Positions 13,050-17,368 of a DNA stretch of 64,000 bases are shown piece by piece; position 1 is the first letter of the stretch, and every line of letters begins with the position of its first letter. The DNA lies in assembly GCF_000165485.1 (NCBI RefSeq), contig NC_014623.1:5226893-5290892 (forward strand), read 5' to 3'. This stretch comes from Stigmatella aurantiaca DW4/3-1. Lineage in GTDB: Bacteria > Myxococcota > Myxococcia > Myxococcales > Myxococcaceae. The translations under genes were made by a program, and so were the position numbers. Below the pieces are notes generated by a model. That model saw nothing but the letters and a program-made list of their open reading frames with translations. It was not told where the DNA came from and did no database searches.

Positions 13050-14198
13050 CTAGGACAGCGGCGGGGCCTGGCGGGGCAGCCGGACCGTGAAGGTGGTGCC
13101 CTCGTTCTCCAAGGACTTCACCTCGATGGTTCCGCCGTGGGCCTTCACCAGGTGTCTCACGATGTAGAGACCCAGGCCCACGCTGCGATTTTCCGGGTTC
13201 ATGTCCGCGGACGCGCGCTGCATCGGTTCGAAGATCTTCGACTGCTGCTGGGCAGGAATGGGCGGGCCCAGGTTGTGGATGGTGAGCGTCGCCTCCCGGG
13301 CATCTCCCACGGTGGCCACGCGCACGGGCGTCCCCTCCGGGCTGTAGTGGAGGGCATTCGAGATCAGGTTGCCCACCACCTGCGCGAGGCGATCCACGTC
13401 CCAGTTTCCGTGGACATCTCCCTCCTGGTACACCTCGATGCGCCGCTCGGGGCGGGCCATCGCCATTTCTTCCACCACCTGGCGCACGACGGCATGCAGG
13501 TCCATGGGCCTGCTCTCCACGCGGATGCCGCCCCCCAGCCGGGCTTGCGTGTAGTCGAGCAGGTCCCGGATCATCCGGTTCGCGCGCTCCGCGGCGGACT
13601 GGATGCGCACGACCGTCTTCGAGTCCCGCTCACTGAGCTCCTCGCGCCGCAGCAGGGCCGTGCTCCCCAGCAGGATGGCGGAGATGGGGCCGCGCAAGTC
13701 GTGGCTGACGATGCCGATGAGGCGCTCGCGGAACTCCGCCGTCTCGTCCAAGCGGGTCTTCTCCAGGGCCACGGCCGCTTGATCCGCGAGGGCGGACAGC
13801 AACCACTCCTGCTCCTCGTTGCTGGACACCGGCTGGAGGAGCGAGACGGCCAGGATGCCCGTCACCTGCCCGCCGACCACCAAGGGGACGCCCAGGAAGC
13901 ACTCGGGGTTGGCACCGAGCAGCCCCTGGAGCCGGTGGATGAGCGTCTCATCGAGCGGCTCGCGGAAGCGCTCCGTGGCCTCCTTGGACAGTCCGAACGC
14001 GGCGCGCACGGACAGGAGCCCCTGCTCGTTGGTGAGCATGAGGACCGCCTTGTCCGTCTCCAGCAACTCCGCGGCGCGCTCGACGGTGAGCCGGAGCACC
14101 TCCTCCAGCGAGACGGCATAGGTGAGCGCACGGCTGACCTCCGTGAGCTTCCGGAATTGCAGGAGGCGTTTGTCATCGCGCTGGAGGGATTTCGCCAC
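13050..14198 (-). CDS. GAF-domain sensor histidine kinase
   Basis: 382 residues from GTG 14198. A GAF domain spans about 25-150. The HisKA dimerisation helix carries the phospho-acceptor in SHDLRGP (H166). The ATPase domain has the N box NLISNALHY (N281), a degenerate G1 box (HNLGPPI, where DxGxG is usual) and the G2 box GLGLYIV. No membrane segment, so it is cytoplasmic. Its start lies one base after the stop of the KaiC-like gene (14200), giving a three-gene minus-strand operon with the receiver-like protein. Because the only receiver in the operon lacks the phospho-acceptor Asp, its true partner is probably elsewhere. Confidence 0.85.
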   Translation of the reverse strand: MAKSLQRDDKRLLQFRKLTEVSRALTYAVSLEEVLRLTVERAAELLETDKAVLMLTNEQGLLSVRAAFGLSKEATERFREPLDETLIHRLQGLLGANPECFLGVPLVVGGQVTGILAVSLLQPVSSNEEQEWLLSALADQAAVALEKTRLDETAEFRERLIGIVSHDLRGPISAILLGSTALLRREELSERDSKTVVRIQSAAERANRMIRDLLDYTQARLGGGIRVESRPMDLHAVVRQVVEEMAMARPERRIEVYQEGDVHGNWDVDRLAQVVGNLISNALHYSPEGTPVRVATVGDAREATLTIHNLGPPIPAQQQSKIFEPMQRASADMNPENRSVGLGLYIVRHLVKAHGGTIEVKSLENEGTTFTVRLPRQAPPLS

Positions 14199-14199
14199 G

Positions 14200-15623
14200 T
14201 CAAACCACCTCGGCGCCCTTGGACGTGATGCGCAACTCCCGCACATTCAGGTCATGGTCTGTTCCGCGCGCCTTGACCACTTGCAGGGTCCTCATGGAAC
14301 GGTTCTGGGGCCGCTCCACCTGCAAGCTCAGGATGGCGTCGGACAGGGCGCTGATCTGTCCCTCCAAGGGGTTGGTCGTCAGACCGGTGGTCTCCAGCGT
14401 CAGGACGCTGGAGACGCGCATCACGGAGAAGTGCTGGGCCAGGGCGTAGAGGTAGCCGAAGAGGCGCTGGAGATCGCTCGCGGCGCTGATGAGATCTCCC
14501 ACGGCGTCCACGGCGACACGCTTGATGTGCTTCTCCTCGATGATGCGGAACAGCTTCACGAGAATGCTGTCGATCTGCAGCTCGACCGGCGAGTGGTAGA
14601 GCAGGTGCAGTCCCATGCGCTGGGCCTCCGCCACATCCCACCCGAGGCTTTGAATGATCCGCGCGAGCTGGGTGGGGTTCTCCTGGAAGTTGACGTAGAG
14701 GCCGGGTCCCCCCGCTTGAGACCCTCCAGGATGAACTGGAGCGCCAAGGTCGTCTTGCCCGAGCCCGTCCGGCCTTCGATCAGGGTCGAGCTGCCCGCCC
14801 ACACACCGCCCTGCAGCATGGTGTCCAACCCCTTCACGCCCGTGGCCAAGCGCGCATCCCGGACGGAGTAGGAGAGTGGAACCTCTGGACTCGTCAACCG
14901 GGGGAAGACCTCCAGCCCATCCGAGGTGATGCGGAAGGCGTGCAACCCCTCCAGGTAATTGCTTCCCCGGAGCTTGAGAACACGCAGGTACCGCTCATCC
15001 CGGGTGCCCTGCTTCTTGCGCGCCAGCTCCACCATCCCGTCGGCCACCGCGAACTCCGGGTAGATGGAGATCTGCGCCTCGCTGTACTCGCCCACGAAGA
15101 ACGCCGTCGTCTCGTAGGCCGTGAGCAGACCCGAGACCTCGTACAGCATCCGGCGCATGTCGGGCACGGAGGTGCTGAGATCGTGGACGGCCTTGAAGGA
15201 GTCGATCACGATGATGCTGGGCGAGAGCGTCTTGATGATCTCCTTCAGCTTGGGCACCACGGCTGCGATGCCCTGCTCCTCCAGCTCCTGGGCGATGGAC
15301 TCGTAGACGATGGCGCCCGAGGTGAGCTTCTCCTCGTCGTAGAAGCCGAACTGCTGGAGGTAGCGCACCACTTTCTCCAGAGGCTCGGAGAGGGTGGTGA
15401 GGTAGAGGATGGGGCGTTGGCCGACCTCTGCGTTGGCGAAGATGAGCCGCTCGGCGAGGATGGTTTTCCCACTGCCCGGCTCGCCCATGAGGATGTTGAT
15501 GGAGTTGGCGGGAAAGCCTCCGCCGAGAATGGCGTCCAGCTGCGGGTTGCCGGTGGGCACGCGTGGCAGCTTGCCCCCTGAAAGGGAAGGAGGCGGGGGC
15601 TCCGGAGGGTGCTTCGCGTTCAT
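14200..15623 (-). pseudogene. double-domain KaiC-like ATPase, one-base frameshift
   Basis: Read with one frameshift this is a ~474-residue protein with two RecA/KaiC domains: Walker A GEPGSGKT at 47-54 and GRTGSGKT at 284-291, Walker B SIIVIDSF at about 137-143 and RVAVDAVGDL in the second domain. The KaiC catalytic Glu pair is L78-S79 in domain I and QE (in NFQENP) in domain II, so hydrolysis may be weak. The frame breaks after about residue 306, at 14703-14713 next to a run of six C; one extra base restores LYVNFQENP. As written the upstream frame makes 355 residues with an unrelated tail after residue 307. Start ATG 15623 overlaps the receiver stop (ATGA). Sequencing error, real inactivation or recoding are all possible. 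Confidence 0.75.
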
Positions 15624-16036
15624 GGTGCCTCGGTGAGGGGATGGGAACGGTGCTCCAAGAGGCCTCGGACCGTCGTGATCAATCGATGCTCGGCCAGGGG
15701 CTTCATGAGGAAGGCATCCGCGCCGGCTTCCTGGGCACGGCCACTGGCCGCGAGGATGCTGAAGATGAGGATGGAGATGTGGCGCGTCTGAGGGGTCGCT
15801 TTCAGCTTCCGGCAGAGCGCCAGGCCATCCAGCTTGGGGACGAGAATCTCGGTGATGACGATGTCCGGCAGCAGCTGCTGGGCTTGCTCCAGCGCGGACT
15901 GGCCGTCCGAGACGAACTCGACGGAGTAGCCGGCCTGCGAGAGGAAGTGAGCCTCCAGCTCGCGCACGTGTGGATCCTTCTCCACCACGAGGATGAGCAT
16001 CTTCCCACTGGAAGTGGATGGGGTCGGATCGGCCAT
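15620..16036 (-). CDS. receiver-domain protein lacking the phospho-acceptor Asp
   Basis: 138 residues from ATG 16036, a stand-alone CheY-like fold. The usual phospho-acceptor Asp is Glu63 (ITEILVPKLDG), and the acidic pair that binds Mg2+ reads E19-K20 in ILVVEKDPHV. Lys112 (FLMKP) and a Ser at the Thr position (S93) remain. The domain therefore probably cannot be phosphorylated in the normal way; Glu may mimic the active state. It is the first gene of the operon with the KaiC-like ATPase (4-base overlap) and the GAF kinase, suggesting it signals by protein contact with one of them. That role is inferred. Confidence 0.85.
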   Translation of the reverse strand: MADPTPSTSSGKMLILVVEKDPHVRELEAHFLSQAGYSVEFVSDGQSALEQAQQLLPDIVITEILVPKLDGLALCRKLKATPQTRHISILIFSILAASGRAQEAGADAFLMKPLAEHRLITTVRGLLEHRSHPLTEAP

Positions 16037-16098
16037 TGAGCGGTCAGGCACTCAAGTGGCGATGCTCCCGGCCATGGAGGAGGGCTGGGGGGACGAGC

Positions 16099-16127
16099 GT
16101 CGTAGCTGCTTTTCTGGTTGTTATCAA
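16099..16127 (-). promoter_or_regulatory. predicted promoter of the receiver/KaiC-like/kinase operon
   Basis: On the minus strand TTGATA (16127-16122), 17 bases, TACGAC (16104-16099); a start near 16092 would give a leader of about 55 bases to the ATG at 16036. The spacer and -35 are covered by the inverted repeat at 16105-16134. Confidence 0.5.
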
Positions 16128-16134
16128 AAGCAGC
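16105..16134. promoter_or_regulatory. 9-bp inverted repeat over the operon promoter
   Basis: GCTGCTTTT (16105-16113) and its exact complement AAAAGCAGC (16126-16134), separated by 12 bases. It spans the spacer and -35 of the predicted promoter, the position expected of a repressor operator. It also lies 43 bases after the stop of the lipase-like gene, so it could act as a terminator, but no T-tract follows on the minus strand. Confidence 0.5.
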
Positions 16135-16177
16135 CGCGGAGTGTTGGGTTCTGCATACCGCGTTGGTTGAGCCAGGT

Positions 16178-17368
16178 TTACTTCAGGCGGTCCTTCAACC
16201 AGTTCTTCGCGTTCTCGACGTCACGCGCGAGCACCCCGAAGTGGTCCATGAGGGGGTACACGCGCAGCTCGATCTGGGCGCCCTTGCTGATCAGTTGCTC
16301 CAGGAGCATGGTGGTCTGAATGGGGCTGACCCGCTCGTCGGCGAGGCCCTGGACGATTCGCACGGGCACATCGATGGAGAGATCCCCGGGGTGCATCTTC
16401 CGGAGCTCCGCCATGAGCGGGGTCAGGTTCGCGTTCTCCTGGAGCATCTTCGAGGGAACCAGGCCGCCCCACGAGTCGCTCTTGCTGAGCTCTACCCGGC
16501 ACTTCGTCTCGACTTCGGGGAACAGGCGCAAGCCCTCCTCGGAGAGGAGGTCCTCCTTCTTGAGGTCCGGATTGCCCGCCAGGGCGCCGGTGAGGAACAG
16601 GGCCGGGAAGGCCGTGCCCTCGGAGGGGTCTCCTCCCTGAGTGCCCAGCCAGAACAGCGTCCCCATGAACGAGGCCGGCGCGAGCGCGAGCACCCCGCGC
16701 AGCTCCAGTTCGTCCTTGCGTGCCTTCGCCTCGGCCGCGGCGAACAGCGCGGCCTGGCCGCCCTGGGAGTGGCCAACGATCGCCACCTTCTTCGAGATCT
16801 CCGGGTGGAGTTCGCGCGCGGCCAGCAGGATGTCGAGGACGCCGTGCGCCTCGGACAGGCCGAGCAGATAGGGGTGGGGGCCCTCCGTTCCAAGCCCCTC
16901 GTAGTCCGTCATCACGACCGCCCAGCCCTCTTTGAGGAACGCATTGAGCATGCGGTGGGGCGCCTGATTGAACTTGTACGCCGGCGAGCCGATGGCGTCG
17001 CGGGAGGGGGCGCACTTGTCGGCGCTGCCCACGGTGCCATGGGCCCAGGTGATGACCGGCCAGCCCCCCGCGGGCGCGGTGCCCTTGGGCAACGCGACGA
17101 TGCCCGAGACGGCGATCGGGGTTCCTTGAACCGAGGTCGAGCGGTAGAGCACCAGCTCGTTGCTTCCCGCCCCCTTCAGCGCGGCGGCTCCCACCAGCTT
17201 GCGCGACCAGATGACGCTTCCGGGCGTGCCCGGAATGGCCTCCGCTGGAGGCGAATAGAATTTCAAACCGGCAGGGGGCGTGAGCGCCGCTGGGGTTTCG
17301 GCGAGGGCCAGGCAGGGGAGGGTGGTGGCGGCAGCGAGGGCGAGGACAGCCAGACGCAGGGCAGACAT
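16178..17368 (-). CDS. secreted lipase-like alpha/beta hydrolase
   Basis: 396 residues with a signal peptide (hydrophobic 5-22, cleavage near ALAE). The nucleophile motif is GHSQGGQ. The acid is probably Asp in VQGLADERV and the histidine lies in MDHFGVLA near the C-terminus, completing the triad. WAHGTVG is a plausible oxyanion loop. The layout fits the secretory-lipase (LIP) family, which cleaves esters outside the cell; the substrate is unknown. It is a single gene, divergent from hspA, with a 255-base gap between the two starts in which a 6-bp inverted repeat (17410-17428) is the only clear structure. Confidence 0.85.
   Translation of the reverse strand: MSALRLAVLALAAATTLPCLALAETPAALTPPAGLKFYSPPAEAIPGTPGSVIWSRKLVGAAALKGAGSNELVLYRSTSVQGTPIAVSGIVALPKGTAPAGGWPVITWAHGTVGSADKCAPSRDAIGSPAYKFNQAPHRMLNAFLKEGWAVVMTDYEGLGTEGPHPYLLGLSEAHGVLDILLAARELHPEISKKVAIVGHSQGGQAALFAAAEAKARKDELELRGVLALAPASFMGTLFWLGTQGGDPSEGTAFPALFLTGALAGNPDLKKEDLLSEEGLRLFPEVETKCRVELSKSDSWGGLVPSKMLQENANLTPLMAELRKMHPGDLSIDVPVRIVQGLADERVSPIQTTMLLEQLISKGAQIELRVYPLMDHFGVLARDVENAKNWLKDRLK

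Follow-up and report, generated by a model that had tools for sequence, protein, structure and literature searches.

We lean towards the view that a three-gene cassette of Stigmatella aurantiaca belongs to a distinct and conserved KaiC signalling family, in which KaiC would be the switch, a degenerate receiver (pseudo-receiver, pREC) a phosphorylation-independent adaptor, and a GAF protein the input. Its members show a conserved order of genes, KaiC and receiver trees that agree, a receiver without its Mg-site Asp, intact Walker motifs, a conserved Ser equivalent to S431, and the presence of MerR on pREC in two phyla. Gene order alone is no proof that pREC binds KaiC, a step that we infer. That KaiC genes lie near kinases and receivers was known. 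What appears to be new is a clade with an upstream, obligatorily degenerate receiver, and the fusion of that receiver to MerR, of which we did not find a description in the literature searched.

The cassette and its broken kaiC frame

The cassette lies on the minus strand of the window, by which we mean the whole stretch of 64,000 nucleotides that was analysed, and it reads receiver, kaiC, GAF-HisKA-HATPase kinase (Table 1). An earlier note on this DNA had described a receiver, a KaiC and a GAF histidine kinase gene, with an ATGA overlap and a gap of a single base as their junctions, and this is borne out by the coordinates and by Pfam, with KaiC ATPase matches of 1.4e-48 and 1.3e-20 in the kaiC frames and matches to GAF (4.9e-11), HisKA (5.5e-12) and HATPase_c (1.1e-24) in the kinase. 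The ATG at 16036 is supported as the start of pREC because the orthologs begin at MADP.

Table 1. Features of the pREC-KaiC-kinase cassette, in window positions
Feature	Position	Strand	Basis
pREC (pseudo-receiver), 138 aa	15620..16036	-	best start ATG 16036, stop 15620; Pfam Response_reg 4e-20
pREC stop/kaiC start overlap, ATGA	15620..15623	-	sequence
kaiC frame 1: CI and start of CII	14556..15623	-	ATG 15623; homologous to ~14706, then out-of-frame tail
One-base deletion site in kaiC	14701..14716	-	GC-rich run; aligning two same-genus orthologs opens a gap after 14707
kaiC frame 2: rest of CII, with NFQENPTQL and S431-equivalent serine (QISALSD)	14200..14700	-	
kaiC/kinase junction TGA-C-GTG, one-base gap	14196..14202	-	kaiC TGA at 14202-14200; kept in two orthologs
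GAF-HisKA-HATPase_c histidine kinase, GTG start	13050..14198	-	H-box IVSHDLRGPIS
Leader between pREC and upstream esterase-like ORF	16037..16177	-	

An esterase-like ORF (16178-17368) separates the cassette from its usual upstream neighbour; in two genomes of the same genus, G001 and G004, that place is taken by ~180 bases only. No sigma-70-like site was found in the leader, a weak test in a GC-rich organism, and the region gave no Rfam match to an RNA element.

Is the kaiC of this strain whole? The earlier note had read a double KaiC-like ATPase here and had not mentioned a break, but no single open frame spans the gene: the first frame stops within CII and the remainder of the domain lies in another frame (Table 1). 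The gene is one base short by alignment with the orthologs of G001 and G004, both of which have an intact KaiC of 474 aa, the same gene order and the same junctions. Searching the full genome (a single contig of 10,260,756 bases) with PF06745 gave the same split. As assembled, the window kaiC would yield only CI and a junk tail. Compared with the window, the orthologs give dN/dS values of 0.14-0.18 (receiver), 0.23-0.25 (kinase) and, for KaiC, 0.27-0.31 before the shift and 0.30-0.32 after it. Because codon selection is equal on the two sides of the shift, the cassette here would appear to be either recently broken or carrying a sequencing error.

To a real, recent pseudogene, with KaiC function lost and the cassette decaying in this strain, we give somewhat less than even weight. 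The one-base deletion relative to two intact orthologs points that way, as do the unbroken state of the remaining KaiC domain matches of the genome and the extra esterase-like ORF, which is upstream of the cassette in this genome only and not in G001 or G004. Yet with dN/dS the same across the shift, and with pREC and the kinase still constrained, decay would be very recent at most, and it is equally likely that an older assembly dropped one base within a GC-rich run. A programmed frameshift is not needed, because a single extra base keeps the frame open in both relatives, and no canonical -1 heptamer was seen in frame. Another such cassette (L169:4359-6662), in a fragmented MAG, also has its KaiC and kinase frames broken, for which quality or decay may be responsible.

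Gene order and trees

The earlier note had proposed looking for the same gene order in relatives; the order is conserved in them, and well beyond the genus, and the idea of a system passes this check. Receiver, KaiC and GAF-kinase follow one another in two more species of the same genus, in one Gammaproteobacteria MAG and in two MAGs from a different Myxococcota family. Of 73 KaiCs placed in a tree, the 30 that have an upstream receiver form one clade (support 100/99), which takes a single change as against 23.5 in shuffles. Since the loci were fetched by similarity of KaiC, and not of the receiver, they were not chosen for having a receiver. The receiver is directly upstream of kaiC in 30/30 clade members, and 26 of the 31 receiver-KaiC pairs have the exact 4-base overlap. 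The pRECs likewise form a clade (100/94), with the main branching as in the KaiC tree. The version with a GAF-histidine kinase (Stigmatella, the Gammaproteobacteria MAG and L168) is a subclade with support of 100/97; a fragmented sixth case, L169, was left out of the KaiC tree. The window cassette has the two marks of the family, an upstream receiver that has lost D13 and a KaiC of the clade.

The titles of the clade members name Myxococcota, Gammaproteobacteria, Actinomycetota and Chloroflexota; these taxon names are those given by the depositors, and most of the distant loci come from MAGs. Because the members are related, the sequence counts given here are not counts of independent events. 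Among the matches listed in the scan of genome contigs, the Gammaproteobacteria MAG has 62% identity and the full receiver-KaiC-GAF-kinase order, and the Actinomycetota and Chloroflexota relatives stand at 41-45% identity; the clade is distributed at least this widely. A close KaiC occurs in only 3/96 genomes of the family, and five genomes of the phylum have clade members. In class-level searches, 20/110 genomes were positive in the class of a Chloroflexota genome, and the other counts were 3/248, 2/36 and 3/247.

The degenerate receiver and its MerR fusions

What has the receiver lost, and what has it kept? The window pREC has the (beta-alpha)5 fold of a receiver in the AlphaFold prediction (pLDDT 87.5), and K112 stands at K109 of CheY. 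In the alignment the acid pair D12/D13 and the D57 of a canonical receiver are replaced by E19/K20 and by E63, and S93 is found at T87. Across the clade, D13 is lost in all 30 pRECs with data, being replaced by R in 21 and by K in the other 9; 26 have E at D12, and K109 is retained in 31/31. Position 57 is D in 24 of the 31 pRECs, E in six (the window and five others) and G in one, and therefore D57E is no family rule. K or R at site 13, present in 30/30 pRECs, occurs in 1/52 of the other receivers in the same loci, as R (Fisher p 1e-21 before allowing for relatedness). Receivers adjoining other KaiC types retain their acids, D13 and D57 being kept in the downstream receivers checked. In three further genomes the upstream receiver is present in 3/3, with R at site 13 in one, I in another, and the site beyond the contig end in the third. 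The earlier suggestion that the receiver is not normally phosphorylatable would thus hold for the whole clade at the Mg site, to judge from the loss of D13 in 30/30.

Is the pREC permanently on? D13K and D57E activate E. coli CheY, which is then poorly or not phosphorylated (PMC4671073), and D13K/Y106W is also activating in CheY (PMC11528121). In EpsW of Myxococcus xanthus, however, the equivalent substitutions D13K and D58E left the receiver inactive (PMC4671073). The pREC of the window, with both D13K and D57E, may be locked in an on-like state or may be merely a scaffold; we keep both readings because the substitutions activate CheY but inactivate EpsW, and the latter result leaves a locked-on state unassured. 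The CheY results also raise the prospect of a phosphomimetic, constitutively active regulator that acts alone and depends little on KaiC. We think this unlikely, as pREC is strictly coupled to one KaiC clade, site 13 is more often R than K, and D57 is usually kept.

The pRECs of Actinomycetota and Chloroflexota are fused to a MerR helix-turn-helix DNA-binding domain (Pfam MerR_1 4.8e-16 to 2.4e-17), with the exceptions of L184, a single-domain receiver, and L185, which is cut off by the contig end. Such fusion in other phyla suggests an output of KaiC that does without receiver phosphorylation. Several of these loci also have STAS genes, mostly divergent, together with MEDS-HATPase_c_2, and a GAF-SpoIIE phosphatase gene is adjacent in four loci. 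STAS, HATPase_c_2 and SpoIIE are parts of partner-switching regulation, and their link to KaiC is one of neighbourhood only. In Chloroflexota L151:2173-3502, L153:2262-3709 and L155:6471-7379, STAS with MEDS-HATPase_c_2, or a STAS-HATPase_c_2 fusion, is divergent from MerR-pREC-KaiC.

Possible workings and known systems

How might such a cassette work? The two-domain KaiC ATPase would be an ATP-driven switch. The pREC, with its phosphorylation pocket gone, would bind KaiC as a dedicated adaptor without being phosphorylated, and the GAF protein would supply the input. In the MerR versions the state of KaiC would be relayed through pREC to transcription, whereas the free-standing pREC of the Stigmatella type would have the GAF-histidine kinase as its target, the parts resembling a split CikA. 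Against such a scheme speak the absence of a GAF-kinase beside most clade members, the D57 kept in 24 of 31 pRECs and the frameshift in the window copy. Somewhat more tentatively, a receiver fold that no longer uses Asp phosphorylation may get the ATP or phosphorylation state straight from KaiC, the output being separate (MerR transcription or a GAF kinase) and independent of SasA, RpaA and KaiB, in at least four phyla. To our knowledge, the output of the many non-cyanobacterial KaiC proteins is unknown. A dedicated partner, DNA-binding in some phyla, would offer a direct and testable output route, because gene order, the agreement of the trees and the consistent loss of receiver chemistry all link that partner to a single KaiC clade. 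Here, too, a receiver fold would have been retained for protein contact after loss of its chemistry, much as in the pseudo-receivers of CikA and KaiA.

One might instead see here an ordinary two-component system, in which the kinase phosphorylates either a different residue of pREC or some distant receiver, with KaiC a mere bystander. The kinase does have the H-box His and the N, F and G2 boxes of a histidine kinase, with HNLGPPIP as its G1 box; its catalytic core is similar to those of bacteriophytochrome kinases, and the 32 similar kinase matches in the S. aurantiaca genome make cross-talk possible. Nevertheless this reading seems improbable to us, given that the whole pREC clade has lost the Mg-site Asp, and this branch the acceptor Asp as well, and that pREC stays with KaiC in inheritance even at loci with no adjoining kinase.

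The best match of this KaiC, both in predicted fold (4.6e-41, TM 0.77) and in sequence, is KaiC, and in both domains the Walker A motif and the Walker B Asp are kept across the clade, the window frame itself being broken. Paired catalytic Glu residues (E77/E78 and E318/E319) are a feature of cyanobacterial KaiC that the Pfam family does not require; in clade members only the second Glu of the pairs is retained, the E77-equivalent being S or T in CI and the E318-equivalent Q or H in nearly all CII domains. The S431-equivalent Ser is invariant, and the T432-equivalent is A, H, Q or Y, so that the two phosphosites of the KaiABC clock are not both present. A KaiABC-like timer, circadian or hourglass, for which the KaiC match and the one retained phosphosite might speak, is very improbable, as KaiB (PF07689) is absent from the S. 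aurantiaca genome, the 474 aa KaiC stops just past CII and so lacks the C-terminal extension seen in cyanobacterial KaiC, the E318- and E77-equivalents are changed, and myxobacterial KaiC is reported to be accompanied by no kaiA and few kaiB (PMC11832031).

CikA is a GAF-kinase whose pseudo-receiver restrains its autokinase activity (PMC6378743). The Stigmatella cassette likewise combines GAF, a histidine kinase and a predicted unphosphorylatable receiver fold with KaiC, but as separate genes and not one protein; moreover, the CikA pseudo-receiver binds KaiB-KaiC, and this genome has no KaiB. Because the one-protein architecture and KaiB are both missing, the likeness is one of logic and not of membership, and no close match to CikA was among the matches listed. 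The N-terminal pseudo-receiver of KaiA is also a receiver fold without a phosphoacceptor that works with KaiC; pREC, however, lacks the KaiA C-terminal domain, and its nearest structures by sequence and fold are the ordinary receivers PleD, RpaA and PhoP. KaiC-family ATPases are joined to two-component parts in archaeal KaiC hubs and KaiC-REC fusions as well (PMC5847659), but those are fusions in narrow archaeal lineages and not a MerR-pREC/KaiC gene pair. For that pair, including its MEDS/STAS/SpoIIE context, nothing was found in the literature searched, which lacks most subscription journals. Rsb-type partner switching (STAS, SpoIIE, HATPase_c_2) neighbours several Chloroflexota and Actinomycetota loci but is absent beside the Stigmatella cassette.

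Pairs of KaiC with a histidine kinase or a receiver are known from Ramlibacter and others (PMC3164672). As in the present cassette, a two-domain KaiC that lacks KaiB there adjoins a kinase or single-domain receiver, and single-phosphosite profiles occur in that heterogeneous group. There, however, the receiver follows kaiC and the downstream receivers checked keep D13 and D57, whereas in the present clade it is upstream, degenerate and, in two phyla, fused to MerR. KaiC with a kinase and a receiver had been thought an unusual combination; in fact a receiver or kinase lies close to each of the six two-domain KaiCs that this genome encodes, and such contexts are published (PMC3164672). Our count of six loci includes the broken one; five kaiC homologs have been reported for S. 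aurantiaca (PMC11832031). At the others (L048, L049, L050, L051 and L052) a receiver, a REC-kinase or a kinase lies within a few genes, the receiver mostly downstream. Three-domain KaiC proteins of 731-821 aa were also seen (L043:7873-10338, L045:8223-10442, L046:8866-11061), with a histidine kinase directly after them in L045 and L046. In a Myxococcota genome, L042:8538-10502, from the same record as L070, encodes a 654 aa KaiC with a C-terminal receiver fusion.
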